Of a DNA stretch of 38,027 nt, positions 1,671 through 16,300 are shown one piece after another. The notes below the pieces were generated by a model, which was not told where the DNA came from, did no database searches, and saw only the letters and a program-made list of their open reading frames with translations. Source of the stretch: an uncultured Clostridia bacterium (GTDB lineage: Bacteria; Bacillota; Clostridia; Oscillospirales; Oscillospiraceae); the NCBI GenBank assembly GCA_945910975.1, contig CAMDZY010000002.1, positions 1 through 38,027 on the forward strand, read 5' to 3'. The stretch's first letter is position 1; each line of letters opens with the position of its first letter. Both the position numbers and the translations under genes were made by a program.

Positions 1671-2561
1671 TTATATAAGCGCACAAATCAGCGAAATCAC
1701 GCTGCCGGCCAGTGCGCTCAAAAGGAAAAGTGCCGCTACAACGATCCAGTTTTCCTTTTGATTTTTGTTTGTGCGGAACAAAACCAACAGGCCGATGCCT
1801 GCGTTGGACAAAAGTCCTGCAAACAGGCCGCCGACGCCGATGATACCGCTGAGATAGGCTTCCGTCAGCACAACGGAAACCGAGCAGTTGGGAATCAGGC
1901 CGAACAGCGCCAGAATGCAATCGCCGATGACCGGTTTGCTGAGGATCGTGCCAGAGAGCTTTTCTACACCGATGACGCCGAACAGCAAATTCAGTCCGAT
2001 GGTCACCAAAATCAGCATGACGGCAATTTTCAGCGTATGCCGCAGCGCCGAGAGCCAAACGCTGCCCTCGTCCTCATCGCAGGAGCAATGCTCCCGCTGG
2101 CAAAAGCTGTGGATGTCCTTCTGCGTCCGGAACCATTTGCCAAGCACGGCATCTACCAGATAGCCCAGCAGAATGCCCAGCGCCGCCTTGCTCAGCACGA
2201 TCAGCACGATCAGCACGATGGAAGAAACCTTTACACTGCCGTTGCCCGTCAGTGCGCCCAGCATGATGGGCAGCATCTCGTCCGAGGTTGCGAAAAACAC
2301 CGCCAGCATGGTGCCTACCGTGATCGAGCCGGTGGAAAACAGTGTAGCGGCCGCACCGGAGATGCCGCACTGCGGCACCACGCCCAAAAGCCCACCCAAA
2401 GCGGGGCCTGCCTTGCGGGAGAAGCTGTGAAGAATATTTTCGTTCAGGCGGTTACTGCGCTCAAGCAGCTCCATCAAAAGATAGGCAATAAACAAAATCG
2501 GAATACTCAACGCGCCATCCTTCAGCCCGTCCAGCACCGCATCCAGAATGAAATCTGCCAA
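1671..2561 (-). CDS. ArsP_2-like putative 10-TM heavy-metal/arsenic exporter permease
   Basis: Polytopic protein with repeated GxxPxCxxS-type motifs (GLLGVVPQCGISGAA, FGLIPNCSVSVV), plus a Cys/His/Asp-rich central loop (HSFCQREHCSCDEDEG). Preferred start is TTG 2561 with RBS AAGGAG 7 nt upstream. The in-frame ATG at 2579 is the alternative. Confidence 0.75.
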   Translation of the reverse strand: MADFILDAVLDGLKDGALSIPILFIAYLLMELLERSNRLNENILHSFSRKAGPALGGLLGVVPQCGISGAAATLFSTGSITVGTMLAVFFATSDEMLPIMLGALTGNGSVKVSSIVLIVLIVLSKAALGILLGYLVDAVLGKWFRTQKDIHSFCQREHCSCDEDEGSVWLSALRHTLKIAVMLILVTIGLNLLFGVIGVEKLSGTILSKPVIGDCILALFGLIPNCSVSVVLTEAYLSGIIGVGGLFAGLLSNAGIGLLVLFRTNKNQKENWIVVAALFLLSALAGSVISLICALI

Positions 2562-2592
2562 ATTAACACTCCTTATCATCCGTATCTTATTC

Positions 2593-2621
2593 AGTATAAC
2601 GGATAAGCGCCGGAAATGCAA
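2593..2621 (-). promoter_or_regulatory. promoter of the permease gene
   Basis: On the minus strand: TTGCAT (2621-2616), 17-nt spacer, TATACT (2598-2593). Confidence 0.65.
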
Positions 2622-2749
2622 ACCATATTTTTCAAAATGCGCAAGATTACGCCCAGGGCTGTGGCCGGTATAGGAATTGCGAAAAGTGAGCGCTTTTTTG
2701 TCGTGAACAATCGTTGCTTGCAAAACAATAAGGGTGCTTCCAGAAATGG

Positions 2750-2778: not shown

Positions 2779-2794
2779 AGAACAAAGTTTAATT

Positions 2795-2990
2795 TGGCAC
2801 AGTGTCCGCCGGGTTCGAGTTAGACCGGCGGGAGAATAGAGAATCGGGTGCAAATCCCGAACGGTACCGCCACTGTAAGCGCGGAGGCCGCACGGAAAGA
2901 CGAAAGTCGGTCATTGGAGGAAGCTCTGAGAAGGCTGCGTGCAGGCTGTCGATGCGCAAGTCAGGAGAACTGCTGCGCCAATTGTTCTGC
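2795..2990 (+). ncRNA. cobalamin (B12) riboswitch aptamer
   Basis: Conserved core AATAGAGAATCGGGTGCAAATCCCGAACGGTACCGCCACTGTAA (GCCACTGTAA at 2869-2878) and B12 box GCAAGTCAGGAGAACTGC (~2956-2973). Non-coding, between promoter and terminator. Confidence 0.93.
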
Positions 2991-3039
2991 CGGAATGCAG
3001 CGGGTGTGTGCTTCTGGCGGTTTTGACGTGGGAAAACGG

Positions 3040-3078
3040 CTGCGGCAATCAGAAATGACCTGATTGCCGCAGTTTTTT
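3040..3078 (+). terminator. Rho-independent terminator, riboswitch expression platform
   Basis: Perfect 13-bp stem CTGCGGCAATCAG/CTGATTGCCGCAG (3040-3052/3060-3072), 7-nt loop, then TTTTTT, 18 nt before the first CDS. Confidence 0.9.
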
Positions 3079-3095
3079 GCAAGGGGAGGGATAAA

Positions 3096-5009
3096 ATGCG
3101 CCGACATAACCTGGTTACAAAAGGGCTGGCAGCCGCGCTGGTGCTTGTCATGTTGCTGCGTATTGCAAGCGCAATTGGCTCGCTGCGGCGCGATGATACC
3201 GTTGAACCGCTCCCGCATAAGACTGCCGCCATTTTGGCCGAAGTCGGCTCCGGCGTGCAGGGGGTTGCTGTGCAAACGCCGCCAGAGGAGCCAACAAAGG
3301 AACCGGAACAGCCCACGGAGCAATCCAGCCCACCTGAGGAGCCTACGGAGCAGGCTTCCCCGCAGGAAGAGCCAAAGCCCACGGATTCGCAAACAGACAC
3401 AAGCGCCCAGCCAGACACCGGCAACCGCACAGATCACGGCGAAACCGGCGACACACCCGGCAAGGATAATCTGCCGGATGGTGGCAATGACAACGGTCAA
3501 AACAAGAATCCCGACGATAACACAAACAACGGTTCAAACAATAACGACGACAATAACAACGATCATCCGCCGGACAAGGACACTCAACTGCGGATCGTCA
3601 CCGATTTGACAAACGGTATGTTCAACTACGAACAGCTGGAAGATGATATTTTGCCCTTTTATGCGTATATTGTAAACGGAAAATCGGATATGTATCTGCG
3701 CGCAAAGCTGCGCAATACCCAAACACCGGCAAACGGGCAGTTTCTCACGGCGCAGGGCAGGAACTTTGAAGCAAGGCTGGCGCGACAGGAGGATAATTAT
3801 ATCACTTTATATGTAAAACAGGGAAGCAAAACCGTGTTGGAGGTCACCTATACCATCCGCTATGAGGCACAGAAGGCGGATGCCAACAAGCCACAGGTGG
3901 GCGATTCTCCGCCGGTTGTGCAAACCAATCTGGACGGCTTTACCGGCACGCTGACTAACCGCAATTTTACACTTACTGTCGATGCGAAAACCACCACAGG
4001 GCAGCGCATTTTTGCAGACAATATCTTTGTCACGCTGGACGGTCAGCCTGTCAGCGGGCCAACCGGCAGTCAGGTGTTTGAGTATGCGCTCTATTTTGAA
4101 AATCCCACGGTCGGGGACAGCCAAACGCATGAAATCACCGTCCTGGCGTGGGACAATGCGGGAAATTCCACTTTTGTGCGTTATGAGGTGACCTATTCTT
4201 TCGTGGATACCGGCGGCACGGTCGGCACGGCGTATATTTTGCTCGATGCCACCACCGTGGGGCTTGACCCGGATACGTTGGGCGGCACGTATGTGTGGAA
4301 AATTCGCCAGAATGTGCCGGCGTCCTACGCCGTTTTGGAGATGCTGGAGGAATTTGGTTACGATGCGGAGTATGCGAACTCGCCGGACGACGGGTTCTAC
4401 CTGCGCCGGATTTCCCGCGGCGGCATGATGGACTATGCACAGATCCCGGACGCACTCTGGCAAAAAATTCAGAAGGACGGTCTGGGCTTGACCGGCCAGT
4501 CCGACGCGGATTCTCTGGGCGAGTTTGACTATACCAACGGTTCCGGCTGGATGTACTCGCTGAACGGGACGCTGTATGCCGGAAAAGGGCTTTCCAGCTA
4601 CTACCTCAGCGATGGCGATACCCTGTATATCCGCTTTACGCTGGCCTACGGCAAGGACATCGGCGGCTATAACGACGGCTATGGGACTCTGTCGACCTAT
4701 TGCGGCAAATGGCTGAACGGCACCTATTTTGACGAGCATCAATGGGGCGAAGCAACCGTTGTGCAGCAGCCGACCTGCACGGAGCCGGGGGTTCTTACAC
4801 GCACGTGCGCAGTTTGCGGCGATCAGCAGGTAACCGGCTCCGTACCGGCACTAGGACACGATTTCGTGGAAACCGGCCGTCAGGAGCCAACGCAGACAGA
4901 GGAAGGCTGGATTGATTACACCTGCACCCGCTGCGGCGCGACCAAACGCGAAATTTTGACGGTTGCAGATACAAATTGGAGGAGAAAACATGAAAGAACG
5001 ACTCGTTAG
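3096..5009 (+). CDS. DUF4430 (transcobalamin-like C-terminal domain) secreted or N-anchored surface protein
   Basis: N-terminal hydrophobic segment, ~100-aa Pro/Glu/Asn-rich linker, Ig-like regions, then a DUF4430-type module (YAVLEMLEEFGYDAEY...GFYLRRI...GSGWMYSLNGTLYAGKGLSSYYLSDGDTLYIRFTLAYG). C-terminal Cys-pair modules (RTCAVCG, YTCTRCGATKRE). Confidence 0.82.
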   Translation: MRRHNLVTKGLAAALVLVMLLRIASAIGSLRRDDTVEPLPHKTAAILAEVGSGVQGVAVQTPPEEPTKEPEQPTEQSSPPEEPTEQASPQEEPKPTDSQTDTSAQPDTGNRTDHGETGDTPGKDNLPDGGNDNGQNKNPDDNTNNGSNNNDDNNNDHPPDKDTQLRIVTDLTNGMFNYEQLEDDILPFYAYIVNGKSDMYLRAKLRNTQTPANGQFLTAQGRNFEARLARQEDNYITLYVKQGSKTVLEVTYTIRYEAQKADANKPQVGDSPPVVQTNLDGFTGTLTNRNFTLTVDAKTTTGQRIFADNIFVTLDGQPVSGPTGSQVFEYALYFENPTVGDSQTHEITVLAWDNAGNSTFVRYEVTYSFVDTGGTVGTAYILLDATTVGLDPDTLGGTYVWKIRQNVPASYAVLEMLEEFGYDAEYANSPDDGFYLRRISRGGMMDYAQIPDALWQKIQKDGLGLTGQSDADSLGEFDYTNGSGWMYSLNGTLYAGKGLSSYYLSDGDTLYIRFTLAYGKDIGGYNDGYGTLSTYCGKWLNGTYFDEHQWGEATVVQQPTCTEPGVLTRTCAVCGDQQVTGSVPALGHDFVETGRQEPTQTEEGWIDYTCTRCGATKREILTVADTNWRRKHERTTR

Positions 5010-6096
5010 TATGATTTTGGCGCTGTGCTTTGTGTGCGCAATGGCTTTGCCCGCATTTGCTGCGGATGCAACGCTCGATGCCATGGCGCAGCAATTGGAC
5101 GGCGAAGCAGAAGACATTTTAAAGACAGCTGCGGAAACGGCAGGCAACAGCCTTTCGGATTGGGCGGTATTGCTGGCGGCGCGCAGCGGAATTACCGCGC
5201 ACCGCGAGGATTATCTCAACGCGCTTTGGGACTATGTTTCCGACCATTATGCGCAAACGGGCGCGCTGGACACGATGAAAGCCACCGAGTGGCACCGCAT
5301 TGCACTGACCGTAACGGCGCTGGGCGCGGATGCCACCTGTTTTGGTACGGACGCACAGGGCAACCGCATCGACCTGCTCGCAGACGGCACCTACAACTGG
5401 AGCCAAACCGATTCGCTGGGCAAGCAGGGGATCAACGGCTGGGTATTTGCGCTGCTTGCACTCGATGCAAGGCAGACGCCGGTGCCGACCGATGCGAAAT
5501 ATCAGCGCGAGGACATGGTTGCGGCAATTTTGGCTGCGCAGGAAGCCGACGGCGGCTTTGGCCTTTCTGCCGGACAGTCGGAAACGGATGTAACTGCCAT
5601 GGTACTGCAGGCGCTTGCGCCGTATGCAGACACCTGCACGCAGCAGATCGACCGCGCACTGGATTATTTGTCCGGTTGCCAAACGCAGCGCGGCGATTTT
5701 GAAAGCCGGGGCGCCACCAGCGCCGAGGGCAGCGCACAGGTGATCATCGCCTTGTGCGCATTGGGCATCGACCCGCGGACGGACAGCCGCTTTGTCAAGG
5801 AGGGCGGCAATGCGCTCGATGGGCTGCTGCTATATCAGACGGCATCCGGCGGCTTCTGCCACGCCCAGACCGAGCAGGACACGCTTCTGGCAACCGAACA
5901 GGCCGGCTTGGCGCTCTGCGCGGTTTCGCGTATGGATGAGGGCCACGGCAGCGTATACGATTTTTCCGACACAGAGGTTCACCCCTATGAATATACAAAA
6001 AGCAACTTGACGATTTATTTTGTCATCGGCGCAGTCGTGCTGGTGGGGATCGTTGCGATTCTTGTCTGGAAAGGGAAGAAAAAATGTTTGAAGTAA
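4990..6096 (+). CDS. alpha/alpha-toroid (prenyltransferase/squalene-oxidase-repeat; transcobalamin alpha-domain-like) protein with C-terminal TM anchor
   Basis: Start ATG 4990 after TTGGAGGAG, overlapping the previous CDS by 20 nt. Signal peptide. Repeats such as AAILAAQEADGGFGLSAGQSETDVTAMVLQALAPY and ALDYLSGCQTQRGDFESRGATSAEGSAQVIIALCALGIDP. C-terminal TM (LTIYFVIGAVVLVGIVAILVWKGKKK). Confidence 0.8.
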   Translation: MKERLVSMILALCFVCAMALPAFAADATLDAMAQQLDGEAEDILKTAAETAGNSLSDWAVLLAARSGITAHREDYLNALWDYVSDHYAQTGALDTMKATEWHRIALTVTALGADATCFGTDAQGNRIDLLADGTYNWSQTDSLGKQGINGWVFALLALDARQTPVPTDAKYQREDMVAAILAAQEADGGFGLSAGQSETDVTAMVLQALAPYADTCTQQIDRALDYLSGCQTQRGDFESRGATSAEGSAQVIIALCALGIDPRTDSRFVKEGGNALDGLLLYQTASGGFCHAQTEQDTLLATEQAGLALCAVSRMDEGHGSVYDFSDTEVHPYEYTKSNLTIYFVIGAVVLVGIVAILVWKGKKKCLK

Positions 6097-7022
6097 CCGC
6101 CCAAATTACAAATCAGGTCAAAAAAGTCATTGTCGGCAAGGACGATGTCATTGAAAAAATATGGATCTCCATCCTTGCGCAGGGTCATGTGCTGCTGGAA
6201 GACGTTCCCGGCGTGGGCAAAACCACAATGGCGCTGTCCTTCGCCAAGGCACTGGGTTTGCAGGTCAAGCGCGTGCAGTTTACGCCGGACACGATGCCGT
6301 CGGATATTTTGGGCTTTTCCGTGTTCCGCGACGGCAAGCTGTGCTATCAGCCGGGCGCGGTGATGACCAATTTGCTGCTGGCCGATGAAATCAACCGTAC
6401 CAGTCCCAAAACCCAGTCTGCCCTGCTCGAAGCGATGGAGGAAGGGCAGGTGACGGTGGATGGTCAGAGCCATCGTCTACCGGAACCGTTTGTGGTGCTG
6501 GCCACACAGAACCCGATTGGCTCGGCCGGAACGCAGAATCTGCCAAATTCCCAGCTTGACCGCTTTTTGATGCGCCTGTCGATGGGCTATCCCGACCGGG
6601 CAAGTCAGGTGAATATTTTGAAAGAACGCCAAGACGGCGACCCGCTCGCCTCCGTGCAGCCGGTTTTGTCCGGTCAGGCGCTGTCCGAGGTGATTCAAAC
6701 GGCGGCAAAGACGGACGTTTCCGACGCGATTTTGGAATATATTGCCGCACTGACCGAAGCAACGCGCAGCCACCCGATGGTGCAGCTGGGCGTCAGTCCG
6801 CGCGGCGCATTGGCACTTTGCCGTGTGGCGAAGGCGTGTGCGTTTGCACGTTGCAGAGATTATGTTTTGCCGGAGGATGTGCAGGACATGGCGATGCAGG
6901 TATTTGTCCACCGCCTGGTGCTGTCGGCAAAGGCTCGGCTCAACGATCGCACGGCGGAGAACATTCTGCGGGAGATCCTGCAAGCGGTTGAAGTGCCGCG
7001 CCTGACGGAGCGCCGCAGATGA
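6084..7022 (+). CDS. MoxR-family AAA+ ATPase
   Basis: Walker A GVGKTT, Walker B LLLADEINR, MoxR hallmarks (FTPDTMPSDILGF, ATQNPIGSAGTQNLPNSQLDRFLM). Overlaps upstream gene by 13 nt. Confidence 0.93.
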   Translation: MFEVTAQITNQVKKVIVGKDDVIEKIWISILAQGHVLLEDVPGVGKTTMALSFAKALGLQVKRVQFTPDTMPSDILGFSVFRDGKLCYQPGAVMTNLLLADEINRTSPKTQSALLEAMEEGQVTVDGQSHRLPEPFVVLATQNPIGSAGTQNLPNSQLDRFLMRLSMGYPDRASQVNILKERQDGDPLASVQPVLSGQALSEVIQTAAKTDVSDAILEYIAALTEATRSHPMVQLGVSPRGALALCRVAKACAFARCRDYVLPEDVQDMAMQVFVHRLVLSAKARLNDRTAENILREILQAVEVPRLTERRR

Positions 7023-8083
7023 GCGGGCTTTGCTGGATCGTCCTCACAGCGCTTGTGCTGCTGGGGTGTCTGCTGCAGCCCTCGGCGGTGCTTGTTGCCG
7101 CTTTGACCGTGTGCTTGCTGCTGCCGCTGCTTTCATGGGCATTTTTATGGTACATAAAAAAACACGTTGATTTTCAAATGGAAACGCCGTCCGTGGTCGA
7201 AAAACGAACGCCCATTTGCCTGCACATCTGCGCAAAATGCCGCTTTGGCACGCGGGTGAGCGGCGTTTTGCGTGTGGAAAATCTTGCAACCGGTGAATGT
7301 AGCCGCATCAAGCTGCGGCTGCGGCGGGAACAGACGGTGACGCTGCAAAGTGATTTTTGCGGCTGCCTGTGCTGTAGCCTGGAAAAGCTGCGGCTGTGGG
7401 ATATCTGCGGCGTACTGCCGCTGCCGGTTTTGTGCAATGCATCCAAGCGGATTTTGGTGATGCCGGACACTTTTCCGGTGGAGATCTGTCCGGACTTGGC
7501 GCCGACGCAGGCCGAGGACTGTCAGGAGTATGCGCAGGACAGGTCCGGTCAGGATCGCACGGAGCAATATTGTCTGCGTGACTATGTGCCGGGGGACAGT
7601 CTGCGCCAAATCCACTGGAAACTGTTTGCCAAGCGGGGCGAACCGGTGGTGCGGGAAGCGGCTTGCCCGGTAGACTGGTCGGTGATGCTGTTTGTGGACA
7701 GAACACGCAGTATCGCAACGCCCGTACAGTCGGATGCAATGCTGGAGGCGGCGGTTTCCGTTGCACAGGCCTTGACGGAGCAGGGTATTCGATTCCGCCT
7801 TTGCTGGAACGAGGAAATCATTCACGAACGCCAAATTGATCAGCACTCGCAGCTGCTGGATGCGGTTGCCGATTTGCTGTCTGCTGCGGGAGAAATTCCC
7901 GGTAGCACGTTGTATCTGCGTACTTGCGGCGCACCGGATGCCGGTCGGGTGATTTATATCGGCGCACAGCCGCCGGAGGATGATTTTTTGCGGGCGGCGC
8001 CTTGTAAGGTGCTGCTTTGTGAGGATAGCGCCGCGTGTCTTGACGCGATGGCGCAGGATTTGCGAATGATCAGTTGGAGTTGA
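7019..8083 (+). CDS. DUF58 domain-containing membrane protein
   Basis: Two N-terminal TMs, then the DUF58 signature DRTEQYCLRDYVPGDSLRQIHWKLFAKRGEPVVREA. 4-nt overlap (ATGA) with moxR. Confidence 0.9.
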   Translation: MSGLCWIVLTALVLLGCLLQPSAVLVAALTVCLLLPLLSWAFLWYIKKHVDFQMETPSVVEKRTPICLHICAKCRFGTRVSGVLRVENLATGECSRIKLRLRREQTVTLQSDFCGCLCCSLEKLRLWDICGVLPLPVLCNASKRILVMPDTFPVEICPDLAPTQAEDCQEYAQDRSGQDRTEQYCLRDYVPGDSLRQIHWKLFAKRGEPVVREAACPVDWSVMLFVDRTRSIATPVQSDAMLEAAVSVAQALTEQGIRFRLCWNEEIIHERQIDQHSQLLDAVADLLSAAGEIPGSTLYLRTCGAPDAGRVIYIGAQPPEDDFLRAAPCKVLLCEDSAACLDAMAQDLRMISWS

Positions 8084-8090
8084 GAAGAAC

Positions 8091-10262
8091 TTGAACCATA
8101 ACAAAACATCCATTCGGCTGACTGCGCATAGAAAGGATGCACCGCAGAAGCGCATTTGGCTGCTTTTGCCTGCCGTACCGATTTATCTGGGATTGTGGGG
8201 AATGTTTTTGCCGCTTGGCTGGTGGCTTTGGCCGGGCAGCTGCACGGTTGTGCTGGCTACGCTGCTTTGCTGGCAGAAGCGATGGCAGCGGGTGACGCTG
8301 ACAGCATTGTGCGCAGCAGGTGCGGCAATCTGCATCGCGGCGTCTACTGCGCTGACACAAGGCTTCGCAGCACTTGCCAATATGCTGCGCCAACAGTTGA
8401 CACAAAAGACCGGCTATTATGTCTTGCCCCTTGAACCGGCGGCTTGGCGTGCGGACATCACGTGTTTTGCGGCGGTGCTTGCTGCCGGGTTGACGGCAGT
8501 GGCAGTGCGGGCGCTGCGGGGTACGCTTCACTTTTTGAGCGCGTTGGGTGTGCTGGCGCTGGTTTTTTCGGGTCTGATCGACGCGGATATTTGGTTGGCA
8601 CTGTATTTGGGCGGTACACTGCTGCTTGCGGTTTTTCTGGCATCCGGCGGGGGAAAATCCATGGTGGCGGCAATGCTGGTGATCGCTGCTGTGATGGGCT
8701 GCTTTGCCACGGTAGACGTCAAGCCGACAGCGGCGAGCCTGTGGTTGCAGCAGCTGCTGCACCGTGTGCGCTATGAATCCGTGAAGAATCCGCTGCCGGA
8801 AGGGAAACTGCAAAATCTCGGTGCCTTTTCCGCCGGTGAGGACATGGCGCTGGAGCTGCGCATGGAGGATTGGTCGGCAACCTACCTGCGCGGCTATGTC
8901 GGCAGCGTCTATACCGAACAGGGCTGGCTAAAGACGGATCTGAATGCCGTCACGGACAAGGCACAGACGCTGTATGCCCTGCAGCGGGACTATTTTTTCC
9001 CCGCAACACAGCGCGGCGCGGCAGAGGAAGAACGTTCGGAAAATGATTTTACGGTAAAAACAGAAAATGCCTGCCGCGCGGAATGCTATATTCCCTACGG
9101 CGCGGCGGAGCTTGACTTGGATCGGCAAGCCTTGCGATCCGAGGGCTGCACAGGGCAGCAGAGCCTGCACGGAACGGTTTATGATGTGTTTGAAAGTTAC
9201 CTGACCCAGGAAAAACTGGCGCAGGAGGGCAGCGATTACCGCATTGCGGAAGCGGCCTATCGGGCATGGGTATATGACCAATATTTGCAGGTGCCCGACG
9301 CGGAGCGGCAGCTGCTTGGCACCCGCTTTGCATTCCCGGAGGAGACTGTTTCCAACACGCAGGCGCGGCAGTGGGTCACGCAGTGTGTGCAAAACGCCCT
9401 GACCTATGACGAGGCAGCGGTGATGGCACAGGGCGATATGCCGTTTTTGGAATATCTGCTTACGGTCAACCCACGCGGCTACAGTGTGCAGTATGCAACG
9501 CTTGCAACGCTGCTGATGCGCTGCTGTGGGATCCCTGCGCGCTATGTGGAGGGATATCTGTTGACCGGCGAACAGGCCGAACAGCTGCAACCCGGCCAGT
9601 GGACAACGCTGCGGCAAAGCGACAGCCATGCCTGGACGGAGATTTATTTGGACGGCGTGGGCTGGATTCCGTTTGACACGACGCCGCAGCACAAAGACGA
9701 AATCACGTATCGCCTCCCGCCCAATGGGCAGGGAACAAGCGACACAGCCGAGGTCACACCACAGCCGTTGCCTTCACCCGATCGACAGGAGATACAGATT
9801 CAAAGACAACCGCAGGAGCCGGAGGAAACGGTGCAAAGTCTGCAATGGCTTTGGCTGCTTTTGTTAGTGGGAATTTTGGCGCTGCTTGTCCGCACAATAC
9901 TGCTTAGAAGACGATTAACAAGACGCATCCGCAGATTTTCTACCGCAGATGCACGTTCGGCCAGTCTGGACTGCCTAGCCTACACGCTGGAGCTTCTCGG
10001 CGCGTTGGGACTTCCGGCGCGCAATGCACCGTTGGGCAAGCGGACGGGGGAGATCACGGCAATCCTGAATTGGCCGGATCCGACGCAGGTGGAGGCGGTC
10101 GTGTCGCTTGCCGGACGGCTTGCGTTCAGCAAGCATCCTGCCACCGAGGAGGATCGCGCGCTGGCGCTGGCCGCATTGACGGCAGTTGGCACGGTTTGGC
10201 GAACCAAAACGCCGTGGGCAAGGCGAATGTATCTGCGGTGGTTTGCCTGCAAAGTCAAGTGA
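8091..10262 (+). CDS. TgpA-like membrane transglutaminase
   Basis: Multiple N-terminal TMs, then transglutaminase core with Cys-His-Asp (LLMRCCGIPARYVEGY, DSHAWTEIYLDGVGWIPFDTTP), C-terminal TM. TTG start. Confidence 0.9.
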   Translation: MNHNKTSIRLTAHRKDAPQKRIWLLLPAVPIYLGLWGMFLPLGWWLWPGSCTVVLATLLCWQKRWQRVTLTALCAAGAAICIAASTALTQGFAALANMLRQQLTQKTGYYVLPLEPAAWRADITCFAAVLAAGLTAVAVRALRGTLHFLSALGVLALVFSGLIDADIWLALYLGGTLLLAVFLASGGGKSMVAAMLVIAAVMGCFATVDVKPTAASLWLQQLLHRVRYESVKNPLPEGKLQNLGAFSAGEDMALELRMEDWSATYLRGYVGSVYTEQGWLKTDLNAVTDKAQTLYALQRDYFFPATQRGAAEEERSENDFTVKTENACRAECYIPYGAAELDLDRQALRSEGCTGQQSLHGTVYDVFESYLTQEKLAQEGSDYRIAEAAYRAWVYDQYLQVPDAERQLLGTRFAFPEETVSNTQARQWVTQCVQNALTYDEAAVMAQGDMPFLEYLLTVNPRGYSVQYATLATLLMRCCGIPARYVEGYLLTGEQAEQLQPGQWTTLRQSDSHAWTEIYLDGVGWIPFDTTPQHKDEITYRLPPNGQGTSDTAEVTPQPLPSPDRQEIQIQRQPQEPEETVQSLQWLWLLLLVGILALLVRTILLRRRLTRRIRRFSTADARSASLDCLAYTLELLGALGLPARNAPLGKRTGEITAILNWPDPTQVEAVVSLAGRLAFSKHPATEEDRALALAALTAVGTVWRTKTPWARRMYLRWFACKVK

Positions 10263-10275
10263 GGAGGAACGGAAC

Positions 10276-13200
10276 ATGAAATACAGCTTACGGCGTTTGA
10301 TCAGCTGCTGCCTTGTGCTGGCGCTGCTTTTGCCATGGCTTCCCATGCGGGTACACGCAGCGGAGCAAGGCCGGCTCGTTCTGGCGGCGGTCACGGAGGA
10401 ACAGGTCATCATTGAACCAATGTACCTTACCTATGACGCTAACGCAACAATTTTAACGACGCTGGCGCAGTCCGGGCATCATTTTGAGGGGCTTGAAACA
10501 GGTTTTATTTCCGCCATTGACGGCGTGGGGGGAAATTTTTCTGTGCTGTGTGACAAAGGGGAATTTTTCCTGACCGCACCGGCTGAAACGGTTTCGACCG
10601 TGTACTTTACAACGGCAACGCCCTCCGATGTCTGCTTTGCACTTTTAAACACCATGGCGGACTATCGGGCAGCGGACAATGGCGTACAAAACGACCCGGC
10701 GGCGCAGCAGGCCTACCGCGATGCACTCGATGCACTGTATGATATGACGCAGGCACAGCAGCGGCAACAGGCCTTGCAGACGGCGATGGATCGCTATGCC
10801 GCTTATCTCAGGGGAGAAACGGTCACACTGCATTTTGACATTTCGCAAGGGACAAAAGCCGGGGTTCCGGTCGATGCGGTTTTCACGGACAGCTTTGGAA
10901 GAATCCATCAGGAAAAGCAGGTGCGGGAAATCTCCCTTCTTCCCGATACCTACACCTTTGATTTGTGCGACGGCGGGAGAAACCACGTGCGCGGCAGCAT
11001 CACGGTGACGGAGGAGCAGACGCTTTCTGCTGCCCTTCCGGTAGGCCAATGGCTCGCGAACGCGGATTTGAGCATAGACAGCGGCGAAAGCTGGAACGCT
11101 GTGCAGCGCGAGGGCGATACATACTATGTGCCGGACTATGCGGAGGGAAACCTATACCCCTACCTTGAACCGGGCGAGGGCGTGGACACGGGCGCGTGCG
11201 GCGTATATTTGGCGAACAGCCCCGATGCACCGCGACGCACCTGGCAGAGCAGGCAGACCGTGCTATCCGGGCTGTATCTGCCGAATTCCATGCAGGGTGC
11301 GGAGTTCGCCTTGGAGGTTCGCAGGCAGGACGGTGCGTGGGAACAGTATCAGACCTATCCGATGCACCTGATCCGCGTGCCGACACTTGCAGCTCTGCGC
11401 GTCAGCGGGGACGGTACGCAGCTTCCGCTGCGCTTTGACCCGGCGGTGCGGGAATACACCGTTACAACAGTTTCCGACACGTTGCGAATCGAGGCAAGCG
11501 CCCTGTGCGAGGACAGCACTGTTTCAATCAACGCAACGGCAGGCACAGCAGCGGACATTCCGGTTACAGACGGCAGCGTCATTACAGTGGACACTTGGCA
11601 CAGCAACGGGCAAGGCACACATTATACGATAACAGTGCGCAAGGCGGCGTCGGCGCAAGTGACACTTCAGAAGCCCAAAAACTGTCAAGTCGCCGTCTAT
11701 AACCGAACGGGCGCGGCCATTATGCCCAAATCGCAAACGGACGCTTCGGCAGTGTTTGCTTTGATTCCCGGTGAGGATTACACCTATGTTGCAACGCAGG
11801 ACACCTATTATCACACCAGCGCCGACTTTACGGCGGAAGACCGGCTGACAATCTCGGCAGCTGCGCCGATCCGGTCGGATTGGCTGCAAGCGCTCCACAT
11901 CGGGCCGACAAAAACGGTTGCCTATGAAAGCGATGCGGCATTTTCTCCGGCTGTGCATACCGGTACCTATTTTGTCGGCAGCAATCAGACGGCATTCGGC
12001 ATGATGGCAACGCTCGCGGAGGGCGCGTCAGGGTGCGAAATCACAGGCCACTACTGCGACTATCGCAGCTGGGAGCCTGCCTATGGGGAGCGGACGCTGC
12101 AAATTCCCGGTGACACATTCCGCACAGCCACGGCCTTCCTCGGCGTTTCCGGCAGAGGGAATACGATACGTCTGGAAATCGGCAGGGAAAAGGACAGCGT
12201 GCGTTATTATCAGGAGTACATTTTGACTGCGCAGCGTCTTCTGCAACTCAATGCCCTGTCGTGTGCAAGCAATGACAGGCAATTGCCGCTGTCGCAGAAA
12301 TTTGATAAAAATGTTTTAAACTATGACGTGTCCTTGGGACAAATGCTGCGGACACTTACGCTGAGTTGGAAGCTGCTGAGCACTGCATCCGGCAACGACA
12401 AGAATTTCACGCTTACTGTGACCTGCGGCGCATCGGTGCAGCAGCTGGATTACACGGCGCTGGAGGTCGAGCAGGTGCAAAGCGTCCCCATTGCGCTCGA
12501 TCCGGAACAGATGGAGGAGAAAATTTTTCTGCGGTTAGAGCATGACGGCGCTATTTCACAGACCTACATCATTACGGTACACAAGCTGCCCTCGGTGGAA
12601 ACGGTGATTGAAGTGTCGCCGTCACAAGCTGTGATTTGCCTGACGGAGGGAGGAACCCGGATCTGGCCGGATGCGGAGGGCAGATATCAGCTCGACCGCG
12701 ATGTGCAATATCGCTATACGGCAACCTGTTACGGCTATGTTTCGCAGGTGCAGACCTTTGTCGCAGGCGAGCCAAACCAAACCATTTCCATCACGTTGGA
12801 ACCGGCGGCAGAAAATCTCCGCGCCGATTTGCTCCAACCGGGCGATTGGAGCAGCTTCCGGGGCAATGCGGAAAATAATGCCGTCACGCAGGCCAAAACG
12901 CCGATTACGGCGGAAAATGCAGTGCTCAACTGGGCAAATAAGCTGGGCAGCGGAATGTCCGGCGGCGGTGTCGGCTCCCCAATTTTGGTGGGCGGCGTTC
13001 TTTATACCTATGCCAATGATACGGTGATGAAGGTGGATAAGAGAACCGGTGCGGTGCTGCTGTCTATGCCGATGGCGCGCGCGTCCAGCTTTTCCATTAC
13101 ACCGCCGGCCTATGGTGAGGGAATGCTCTTTGTCGGATTGTCCAACGGCGGCATTCAGGCCTTTGACGCGCAGACATTGCAGCCGCTTTGGCTGTATGAG

Positions 13201-15153
13201 GATGCGCTGGGCGGCCAACCCAATTGCCCCATTACGTATCGTGACGGTTATCTGTATACCGGCTTCTGGAATTCCGAAACCCGCCAGGCCAACTTTGTCT
13301 GCATCAGCGTGACCGATGAAGACCCCACACGGGGCGACGAGGAAAAGTACGCGGCATGGATCTACACTGGCAGCGGGTTTTACTGGGCGGGCGCATATGT
13401 AACAGACCGGTTTGTTTTGGTGACAAGCGATGACGCAGAGATCGGCTATCAAAAGGGTCACGGCGAAATTTTGTCGCTGGACTGCCGAACGGGGCGGCTG
13501 CTGGACAGACAAACGGCGTCGGGGCTTGGCGACTTGCGCAGCAGCGTTTGCTATGACGCAGATACGGACAGCTGTTATTTCACCTCTAAGGGCGGCGACT
13601 TTTACGCCATTGCGGTCAACCCGGACGGAACCTTCCGCGCCGATTCACAAAGGAGCCTGCATTTGCGCAACGGCTCGGACAATCCGGCGACGCCGCCCAT
13701 GAGTACTTCTACCCCGGTGATCTATCAGGGCAGAGCCTACATCGGCGTTGGCGGAACGGCACAGTTTGGCGCATATTGCGGGCATAATATCACGGTGATC
13801 GACCTTGCGTCGTGGAGCATTGCCTATACGGTTCCGACGCAGGGACAGCCGCAGACCAGCGGCCTGCTGACAACGGCGTATGACGATGCGGTCTATGTCT
13901 ATTTCATCGACAACGCATCGCCCGGCAAGCTGCGTGTGATCCGCGATACGGCAGGACAGACACAGCCAAGCTACACCACAACAGAGCATTACACCACCGC
14001 CGGGCAGACGGTGAGCATAGAAGCGGCATATGTCCTGTTCACACCGCATGGCGAGCAGGCGCAGTATGCCATTTGCAGCCCAATTGCGGACGGGGAGGGG
14101 AACCTCTACTTTAAAAATGACTCCGGCTATCTCATGTGTGTGGGTAACGCGATCACAAAGCTGACCGTTGCCAAACAGCCGGAAAAGACCGTCTACGAGG
14201 TGGGAGAAATCTTTGACCCGACGGGCTTGCAGGTGTTGGCGCAGAATGCAAGCGGTGCGGAGTGGGACGTTACGCCCTATACGCGATTTTCAACCGAACC
14301 GCTGACAACACAGGACACGGAGTTCACGCTTACCTGTTCGTTTGGTGCGCACCAGCAGATGTACCACAACTGCGACGGTCAGAGCGGCGTGGCATATCAT
14401 ATCCCGACCGCCACGCTGGATTTGACGGTTTGTCCGGGACACCAATGGGATAACGGCACTGTCACCATCCCGCCGACCGCAGAGTCCGAGGGGGAAATGA
14501 CCTATGCCTGTACGCTCTGCGGCGCAACGCGCACCGAAGCGATTCCGGCGACCGGCGAATGCACCGGCGGCGAGGACTGCCCGTCGCATCCATTCACGGA
14601 TATTTCGCCGACGGCTTGGTATCACAAGGCGGTGGACTATGCGGTCGTCAACGGCTTGATGTTTGGCGTGAGCGAAACGCAATTCTGGCCAAACGCCACC
14701 ATGACCCGCGCGCAGCTGGTGACGGTGCTTTGGCGGCAGGCGGGAATGCCCAAACCAACGCAGAAGGCCGCTTTCACCGATCTGACGGCTGCCTGGTATC
14801 AGGATGCCGTTACATGGGCAGCGGAGAACGGCATTGTTTATGGCATGACGCAAACGAGCTTCCAGCCAAACGGCACGGTGACGCGGGAACAGTTGGCCAC
14901 GATCCTCCGCCGCTATACAAGCGACTATTTGCAGCACGATACGGATGCCCGACAGGATTTCGCCGCCTTTGAGGACGGTGAAACGGTTTCCGGCTGGGCG
15001 TATGCGTCCATGCAATGGGCGGTTGCCGAGGGTTTCATCAGCGGCAACCGAAATGGCGGAAAGCTGTATCTTAGCCCAAAAAACGGCGCGACCCGCGCGC
15101 AGGTCGCTTCTGTCCTGATGCGGTATATTCAAAAGATGACGAGCCTGCAATAA
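10276..15153 (+). CDS. 1625-aa SLH-anchored surface protein with cadherin-like domains and a PQQ-like beta-propeller
   Basis: Start ATG 10276 after GAGGAGG. Signal peptide. Cadherin-like sandwich (LAALRVSGDGTQLPLRFDPAVREYTVTT...YTITVRK). Propeller-like repeats beginning WSSFRGNAENNAV..., with blades such as TVMKVDKRTGAVLL and GGIQAFDAQTLQPLW. Bacterial Ig-like region (VAKQPEKTVYEVGEIFDPTGLQV). Three C-terminal SLH repeats (PFTDISPTAWYHKAVDYAVVNGLMFG...). Confidence 0.88.
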   Translation: MKYSLRRLISCCLVLALLLPWLPMRVHAAEQGRLVLAAVTEEQVIIEPMYLTYDANATILTTLAQSGHHFEGLETGFISAIDGVGGNFSVLCDKGEFFLTAPAETVSTVYFTTATPSDVCFALLNTMADYRAADNGVQNDPAAQQAYRDALDALYDMTQAQQRQQALQTAMDRYAAYLRGETVTLHFDISQGTKAGVPVDAVFTDSFGRIHQEKQVREISLLPDTYTFDLCDGGRNHVRGSITVTEEQTLSAALPVGQWLANADLSIDSGESWNAVQREGDTYYVPDYAEGNLYPYLEPGEGVDTGACGVYLANSPDAPRRTWQSRQTVLSGLYLPNSMQGAEFALEVRRQDGAWEQYQTYPMHLIRVPTLAALRVSGDGTQLPLRFDPAVREYTVTTVSDTLRIEASALCEDSTVSINATAGTAADIPVTDGSVITVDTWHSNGQGTHYTITVRKAASAQVTLQKPKNCQVAVYNRTGAAIMPKSQTDASAVFALIPGEDYTYVATQDTYYHTSADFTAEDRLTISAAAPIRSDWLQALHIGPTKTVAYESDAAFSPAVHTGTYFVGSNQTAFGMMATLAEGASGCEITGHYCDYRSWEPAYGERTLQIPGDTFRTATAFLGVSGRGNTIRLEIGREKDSVRYYQEYILTAQRLLQLNALSCASNDRQLPLSQKFDKNVLNYDVSLGQMLRTLTLSWKLLSTASGNDKNFTLTVTCGASVQQLDYTALEVEQVQSVPIALDPEQMEEKIFLRLEHDGAISQTYIITVHKLPSVETVIEVSPSQAVICLTEGGTRIWPDAEGRYQLDRDVQYRYTATCYGYVSQVQTFVAGEPNQTISITLEPAAENLRADLLQPGDWSSFRGNAENNAVTQAKTPITAENAVLNWANKLGSGMSGGGVGSPILVGGVLYTYANDTVMKVDKRTGAVLLSMPMARASSFSITPPAYGEGMLFVGLSNGGIQAFDAQTLQPLWLYEDALGGQPNCPITYRDGYLYTGFWNSETRQANFVCISVTDEDPTRGDEEKYAAWIYTGSGFYWAGAYVTDRFVLVTSDDAEIGYQKGHGEILSLDCRTGRLLDRQTASGLGDLRSSVCYDADTDSCYFTSKGGDFYAIAVNPDGTFRADSQRSLHLRNGSDNPATPPMSTSTPVIYQGRAYIGVGGTAQFGAYCGHNITVIDLASWSIAYTVPTQGQPQTSGLLTTAYDDAVYVYFIDNASPGKLRVIRDTAGQTQPSYTTTEHYTTAGQTVSIEAAYVLFTPHGEQAQYAICSPIADGEGNLYFKNDSGYLMCVGNAITKLTVAKQPEKTVYEVGEIFDPTGLQVLAQNASGAEWDVTPYTRFSTEPLTTQDTEFTLTCSFGAHQQMYHNCDGQSGVAYHIPTATLDLTVCPGHQWDNGTVTIPPTAESEGEMTYACTLCGATRTEAIPATGECTGGEDCPSHPFTDISPTAWYHKAVDYAVVNGLMFGVSETQFWPNATMTRAQLVTVLWRQAGMPKPTQKAAFTDLTAAWYQDAVTWAAENGIVYGMTQTSFQPNGTVTREQLATILRRYTSDYLQHDTDARQDFAAFEDGETVSGWAYASMQWAVAEGFISGNRNGGKLYLSPKNGATRAQVASVLMRYIQKMTSLQ

Positions 15154-15159
15154 CGAGAT

Positions 15160-15199
15160 CCCTGATTTTGCAACGCAACGCAAAATCAGGGATATTTTT
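15160..15199 (+). terminator. Rho-independent terminator ending the B12 operon
   Basis: 11-bp perfect stem CCCTGATTTTG/CAAAATCAGGG (15160-15170/15181-15191), then ATATTTTTG. Confidence 0.85.
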
Positions 15200-15379: not shown

Positions 15380-16300
15380 ATGGCGCGTGTTGTTGTGTTT
15401 GGAAGTTTTAACGTGGATTTGATGGCACGAGCCGAGCATATGCCGGTTCCGGGTGAAACGGTTTATGCCACAATGTTCCGCCAAAGCGCCGGCGGCAAGG
15501 GGTTTAACCAGGCTGTGGCGGCGCACAAGGCCGGCGCAGAGGTAACGACCATCGTCAAGCTGGGCAGGGATGCCATGGCGAATATGGCGCTGGAGGTTAT
15601 GCGGCGGCTGCATATGCCGCAAGATAGGGTGCTCTATCACCCGACAGCCTCCACCGGAACGGCGTTGATCACCGTGGACAATATCACCGGCCAAAATGCT
15701 ATTGTCATTGTTCCCGGCGCGAACGATACCTTTACGGCGGACGATGTTGCCCGCGTGGCCGACGTGCTGGACGGCGCATCGCATCTGCTGTTGCAGTTGG
15801 AGGTCAACCAGCAGGCAAACGAAATGCTTGCCCGCATTGCCAAGAAAAAGGGCGTCAAGGTCATCATCAACACCGCCCCCTACCGCCCGGTGTCGGAGGA
15901 ATTTTTAAACGGCGCTTATCTTGTGACACCCAATGAGGTGGAGGTCGAAGAAATGACCGGCGTAGCTGTCACGGATTTATACAGTGCCGACCGCGCTTCT
16001 GCCGTGCTGCTGCGGCAAGGCGTGCAGAATGTGCTGATCACACTGGGCAGCCGCGGCGTCTATCTCAACGCCGACGGAAAGTCGCAGATCATCCCGGCGC
16101 ACGTTGTCCGCGCGGTGGACACCACCGGCGCAGGCGATTGCTTCAACGGCGGCCTGCTCGCGGCGCTGGCGGAGGGCAAAACGCTGCCGCAGGCGTGTGT
16201 GTTTGCCAATGCGCTTGCAGCACTGGCCGTGCAGAAAATCGGCGCGGCGGACGCTGCACCTACCCGCGAAGAGGTAGAAGCGTTCCTCATGGAAATTTGA
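15380..16300 (+). CDS. rbsK: ribokinase / PfkB-family sugar kinase
   Basis: VVVFGSFNVDLMARAEHMPVPGETV, GGKGFNQAVAAHKAGA, and the PfkB signature VDTTGAGDCFNGGLLAALAEG. Confidence 0.88.
   Translation: MARVVVFGSFNVDLMARAEHMPVPGETVYATMFRQSAGGKGFNQAVAAHKAGAEVTTIVKLGRDAMANMALEVMRRLHMPQDRVLYHPTASTGTALITVDNITGQNAIVIVPGANDTFTADDVARVADVLDGASHLLLQLEVNQQANEMLARIAKKKGVKVIINTAPYRPVSEEFLNGAYLVTPNEVEVEEMTGVAVTDLYSADRASAVLLRQGVQNVLITLGSRGVYLNADGKSQIIPAHVVRAVDTTGAGDCFNGGLLAALAEGKTLPQACVFANALAALAVQKIGAADAAPTREEVEAFLMEI

Follow-up and report, generated by a model that had tools for sequence, protein, structure and literature searches.

Gene 6, the last gene of a riboswitch-headed operon, encodes a giant SLH-anchored protein carrying an eight-bladed beta-propeller, and it very likely forms part of B12 uptake in these Clostridia. 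The B12-uptake role is well supported because DUF4430 and ECF transporter genes recur as neighbours of the propeller and because the single cobalamin riboswitch of related genomes is placed ahead of it. That the propeller itself binds corrinoid is about as probable as its opposite, since its conserved face suits a ligand and a protein partner alike. The window analysed here is the whole 38,027-nucleotide stretch of DNA; the riboswitch, the operon, the domains and the recurrent linkage to DUF4430 and ECF genes are all sequence-based assignments.

The initial annotation had placed the propeller protein in a B12 operon, and an RF00174 match now bears this out (Table 1). A promoter-like site (2750-2778) lies ahead of the aptamer. 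The hairpin that follows it, a presumed expression platform, has a 15-pair stem, with a fold z-score of -3.5 for positions 2992-3095. The operon comprises six genes, encoding, in order, a DUF4430 protein, a toroid, MoxR, DUF58, a transglutaminase-like protein and the giant, all of them overlapping or separated by gaps of no more than 13 bp. The sugar-kinase and glycogen genes after position 15380 form a separate unit. Divergent to the riboswitch operon is a 350-aa ORF (1674-2723, minus strand) that matches a 10-TM heavy-metal exporter family (ArsP_2); the plus-strand ORF at 1662-2606 is probably spurious.

Table 1. Coordinates of the operon, its regulatory elements and the domains of gene 6 within the window
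Feature	Position	Strand	Basis
Cobalamin riboswitch aptamer (RF00174), operon head	2784..2991	+	96.9 bits, E 3.7e-23
Terminator-type hairpin with U tract, presumed expression platform	3038..3078	+	Between aptamer and first ATG
Gene 1, membrane-anchored extracellular protein with DUF4430 (transcobalamin beta-domain-like SLBB)	3096..5009	+	Profile searches
Gene 2, secreted alpha/alpha toroid with C-terminal transmembrane helix	4990..6096	+	PF00432
Gene 3, MoxR AAA ATPase	6084..7022	+	PF07726, E 2.3e-55
Gene 4, DUF58 protein	7019..8083	+	PF01882, E 3.3e-9
Gene 5, membrane protein with transglutaminase-like domain lacking the catalytic Cys	8091..10262	+	PF01841
Gene 6, giant SLH-anchored propeller protein	10276..15153	+	1625-aa ORF
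Probable degenerate DUF4430/SLBB domain, gene 6 aa 28-118	10357..10629	+	hhalign and model
Stalk of beta-sandwich domains, gene 6 about aa 183-845	10822..12810	+	Pfam and model; includes Cadherin-like 372-456
Eight-bladed BamB/PQQ-class beta-propeller, gene 6 aa 858-1291	12847..14148	+	Model, Foldseek, profile search
Big_3-like Ig domain, gene 6 aa 1301-1329	14176..14262	+	Pfam, sub-threshold
Three SLH repeats (cell-wall polymer anchor), gene 6	14590..15141	+	PF00395, E 4e-26
Terminator-like hairpin at operon end	15158..15193	+	Hairpin fold, 3' of gene 6

The gene 6 ORF is preceded by a GAGGAGG-type ribosome site and starts with a signal peptide, recognised by eye (MKYSLRRLISCCLVLALLLPWLPMRVHAA). 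A beta-sandwich stalk, the propeller, a weak Ig-like domain and three SLH repeats follow in this order. The initial annotation had described a 1625-aa protein with a signal peptide, cadherin-like sandwiches, a propeller of about 430 aa at roughly 12840-14150, an Ig-like domain and three SLH repeats, and each of these elements was recovered by the ORF, Pfam, inspection by eye or the structural models. In the stalk, Pfam detects a Cadherin-like domain, and the model of aa 29-845 (pLDDT 86, pTM 0.51) contains, after a small N-terminal domain and a helical stretch, a series of sandwich domains, a rod whose fold matches are generic Ig-type chains only. The Ig-like domain is a Big_3 match of 16.7 bits, below the cut-off of 21.2, and was detected in 11 out of 29 homologues. 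The SLH repeats match the SLH structures of the S-layer protein Sap.

One domain had been absent from the initial annotation. For the N-terminal domain (aa 28-118), hhalign gives an alignment to the DUF4430 profile at 86% probability (P 4.6e-6, 43 columns), a match limited to the first half of the DUF4430 domain, and the model of this region begins strand-strand-helix. Because of this alignment, gene 6 probably carries a degenerate DUF4430/SLBB domain; comparison of its N-terminus with solved structures yielded no useful direct match. Near their C-termini, gene 1 (4740-4960) and gene 6 (14360-14530) also have in common 'CxxCG...IPA'-like Cys-containing repeats, which possibly bind metal.

The propeller was modelled over aa 836-1305 with 29 sequences (pLDDT 91.3, pTM 0.90). 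Read by eye from the strand list, the model consists of eight four-stranded blades with the N-terminal strand as closure; the blade and face assignments were drawn from the secondary-structure string, without coordinates. Pfam places PQQ_2 (PF13360) above its cut-off at aa 886-979. The closest folds retrieved with Foldseek are designed PQQ-like propellers, BamB and PQQ dehydrogenases, and the profile search concurs. Against the NCBIfam BamB equivalog, the propeller scored 20.5 bits, the cut-off being 285.2. It belongs, then, to the BamB/PQQ_2 class and is not BamB proper.

Across 50 propeller homologues, conservation peaks just before the inner strands, which corresponds to the loops of one face. 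Mean conservation was 0.42 overall and 0.55 in these loops, the latter equalled by 3 out of 399 circular shifts. The conserved residues comprise Q981, GFYW 1034-1037, R1088, T1146-P1147 and Q1263-Y1264. This pattern is compatible with a ligand or partner site and does not imply a corrinoid as the ligand. An acidic face like that of BtuG2 was considered and dropped: the predicted binding face of gene 6 is not notably acidic, and the loop charges (top, median -7, with 148 loop residues for the window; bottom, median -12, with 77) lack a top-versus-bottom contrast of that kind.

The initial annotation had also named DUF4430 and toroid proteins as operon partners, and genes 1 and 2 indeed encode such partners, with DUF4430 recurring in related loci (see below). 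The DUF4430 domain of gene 1 falls slightly below the cut-off in one profile search and above it in another. When the family profile was compared with the PDB, transcobalamin 1 and 2 ranked as the top two matches, both weak (E 0.10 and 0.18). A profile of gene 2 matches squalene-hopene cyclase and complement/A2M toroids. Gene 5 has a Ser at the position of the catalytic Cys of active transglutaminases, and 53 out of 54 operon homologues are likewise non-Cys, the sole exception being G783 (L132). Covalent cross-linking of the complex by gene 5 was considered and dropped as unlikely because this Cys is missing.

BamB-class propellers are often protein-docking scaffolds. It is possible, if doubtful, that the gene 6 propeller is one of them, holding the DUF4430 and toroid proteins at the wall while only those two bind corrinoid. 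Its nearest folds and profiles are those of BamB. The DUF4430 and toroid proteins, which recur, could by themselves make up a transcobalamin-like cage, as argued in PMC1796856, and the DUF4430 profile has the transcobalamins as its weak top two PDB matches. However, the strongly conserved aromatic and polar loop residues of one face would in that case require a conserved protein partner, and the toroid was not found, within the stretch covered, in three compact propeller-first operons (L125, L126 and L129).

Propeller matches were retrieved from 28 out of 301 genomes of the same family and, at a stricter cut-off, from 6 out of 295 genomes of the order and 21 out of 391 of the class. Fifty propeller loci were annotated with home-made profiles. 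A DUF4430 gene occurs within about 20 kb or less in 47 of them, including one (L039) counted through a tblastn match at the contig end; it is missing from L046, L048 (contig cut) and L133. Genes for ECF transporter T or S components are present in 28 of the 50 loci. The order MoxR, DUF58, transglutaminase-like, propeller is found in 15, one of them (G922, L139) belonging to another family, and Emergencia timonensis (L187) has it too. In a further set of 80 loci from named genomes, examined with 6 kb flanks and partly sharing genomes with the first set, 57 contain DUF4430, toroid or ECF genes; the remaining 23 are mostly long operons cut by the 6 kb flank, or short contigs.

The architecture of the family varies. 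A single chain at L062:547-6480 runs propeller-DUF4430-toroid-DUF4430-SLH, that is, the surface system fused. The three compact propellers mentioned above lie directly 3' of a riboswitch and 5' of DUF4430 and ECF genes. In L133 (6189-11573), three CWB2 domains replace SLH in a propeller giant with a cobalamin riboswitch just upstream, and no anchor was found in the compact form of Emergencia timonensis. The anchor is swappable across the family: SLH, CWB2 or none found. At L046:358-11333, a minus-strand cobalamin riboswitch, divergent from that of the propeller, faces genes that include one for a 2994-aa nonribosomal peptide synthetase, an unusual setting for B12 control.

In genome-wide RF00174 searches, 17 genomes had one match and no more. 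In 15 of them, this single riboswitch shares the strand of the propeller gene or its operon and lies upstream of it (G126, G195, G298, G127, G058, G335, G395, G411, G457, G692, G761, G780, G797, G814 and G880; the matches in G058 and G395 are below the family cut-off). This does not hold for G887, nor for G096, where a contig end truncates the propeller operon. With one riboswitch per genome of about 2 Mb, such linkage is far beyond chance. The initial annotation had raised the possibility that homologues lie mostly outside B12-regulated contexts; the counts for DUF4430, ECF and riboswitch linkage point in the opposite direction. For eight full-length propeller loci, the upstream stretch that was searched first contained no riboswitch. 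In two of these (G160 and G088), several lie further up on the same strand, at a distance of about 10 kb, two start near a contig end and the rest are without explanation; a plain B12 box search in the riboswitch-less loci was uninformative. G160 contains three cobalamin riboswitches within 1.4 kb (L091:697-2084), upstream of a six-gene operon, and two of the three are also present at the equivalent place in G088 (L092).

These neighbourhoods bear on whether gene 6 could be a general S-layer or adhesion protein, with a B12 link that is incidental to a shared operon. The source genome does contain more than 20 further SLH regions, and the sandwich rod forming the stalk is of a generic kind. Nevertheless, we consider this reading very improbable, given the repeated linkage to cobalamin riboswitches, DUF4430 or ECF across several families and the genomes whose single riboswitch precedes the propeller gene.

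Only two cobalamin riboswitches were detected in the source genome. One heads the six-gene operon, while the other (L082:13353-17606, on another contig) is followed by a DUF4430 gene and the ECF genes T, A-A and S, which probably constitute a corrinoid transporter operon. The ECF genes, absent from the window, are found in this second riboswitch operon. A third DUF4430 domain (G000:C14:4924-5106) has no detected cobalamin riboswitch. Searches of this genome, which is 87% complete, did not find CbiD, looked for as a sign of B12 biosynthesis, and did not clearly find a B12-dependent enzyme; the six-gene operon contains no TonB receptor.

Taken as a whole, including direct capture by the propeller, our scheme, in which gene 6 encodes a wall-anchored subunit that contributes the propeller to a B12-repressed system for scavenging corrinoid, has roughly an even chance of being correct. 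When corrinoid is scarce, the riboswitch would permit transcription of the operon. The SLH repeats would fasten the gene 6 protein to the cell wall, and the sandwich rod would extend the propeller outward. There, the propeller may capture either corrinoid or a partner in its corrinoid-loaded state and concentrate it for the DUF4430 and toroid proteins, which, tethered to the membrane, may act as a split transcobalamin-like pair. This pair could hand the corrinoid to the ECF transporter encoded on the other contig, with its own riboswitch and DUF4430 gene, in an order of hand-off that we infer. MoxR-DUF58 and the catalytically dead transglutaminase-like protein would probably serve assembly at the membrane.

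Much gut B12 is protein-bound, and many named hosts of the propeller family are gut-derived metagenome genomes. The propeller might accordingly capture a B12-carrying macromolecule (a host or microbial B12-binding protein, a glycan or a vesicle) in place of free corrinoid, and proteins are common ligands of propellers. We regard this as improbable, as none of the sequence features tested indicates such a ligand.

As far as the literature searched shows, what is new is the dedicated propeller family and its linkage to riboswitches, together with the six-gene operon and the dead transglutaminase-like partner. Somewhat short of even confidence, we tentatively propose that this unnamed eight-bladed BamB-class family is a dedicated corrinoid receptor of Clostridia, of an origin independent of BtuG, with interchangeable wall anchors and, as partners, a split transcobalamin-like pair and an assembly module that is transglutaminase-like but non-catalytic. 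Surface B12 capture by Gram-positive gut bacteria is little known compared to that of Bacteroidota. Should the propeller bind corrinoid, the job of BtuG would have been taken on independently by a second lineage of propellers, and gut B12 competition would gain a defined Gram-positive side. Even as a scaffold only, it would mark a conserved, riboswitch-controlled surface complex and offer a proposed context for the DUF58 and Cys-less transglutaminase-like families. Culturable relatives (Emergencia timonensis, Eubacterium barkeri and Blautia glucerasea) make the propeller hypothesis testable.

The initial annotation had suggested a Gram-positive analogue of BtuG. The B12-regulated surface context stands and a function like that of BtuG is plausible, whereas kinship with BtuG is not supported. 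Both are surface-exposed beta-propellers encoded in a B12-uptake locus, with corrinoid capture proposed. However, the propeller of BtuG2 is seven-bladed (PMC10404256), and BtuG2 is a lipoprotein lid on the TonB transporter BtuB (PMC10404256; PMC6143338), while gene 6 has a predicted eight-bladed BamB/PQQ-class propeller, anchors to the wall by SLH, has ECF partners and is a putative corrinoid binder. No BtuG was found among the PDB profile matches of the propeller up to E 10 or among its top 50 fold matches, and one out of 29 homologues matches DUF5074, weakly. We thus dropped membership of the BtuG family; the tests made point to an analogue by location, and possibly by function, and not to kinship. 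BamB and PQQ-type eight-bladed propellers share the fold and weak profile similarity with gene 6, which differs in lying far under the equivalog cut-off and in its Clostridial surface and B12 context.

The wider system of SLBB/toroid scavenging was already predicted by Burroughs et al. 2007 (PMC1796856), who, in the passages concerned, assigned B12 scavenging to SLBB/toroid surface proteins found with CbiO/CbiQ of low-GC Gram-positives, listed a beta-propeller fusion in one Clostridium protein and proposed that such extra domains might tether the proteins to polysaccharides of the wall. A literature search for DUF4430 or PQQ-like propellers with B12 in Gram-positives retrieved nothing past that work. 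The window operon is of the same kind, with the surface SLBB and toroid domains in genes 1 and 2; its ECF genes, in contrast, lie outside the operon, in the second riboswitch operon, and they occur in the related loci counted above. The riboswitch, the MoxR-DUF58-transglutaminase-like genes, the SLH giant and the dedicated propeller family do not appear in those passages. In the PFNA cluster of Bifidobacterium, a large extracellular FN3 protein is likewise encoded next to MoxR, DUF58 and transglutaminase genes (PMC8430577), so an assembly role for this set is suggested, not proven; immune recognition is proposed for that cluster, and the abstract of that paper makes no link to B12. ECF-CbrT is a vitamin B12 ECF transporter (PMC5997447). 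The window differs in containing no ECF genes, and the S component encoded elsewhere in the genome has a presumed B12 specificity; ECF modules nevertheless adjoin many propeller loci, as well as the other riboswitch of this genome.
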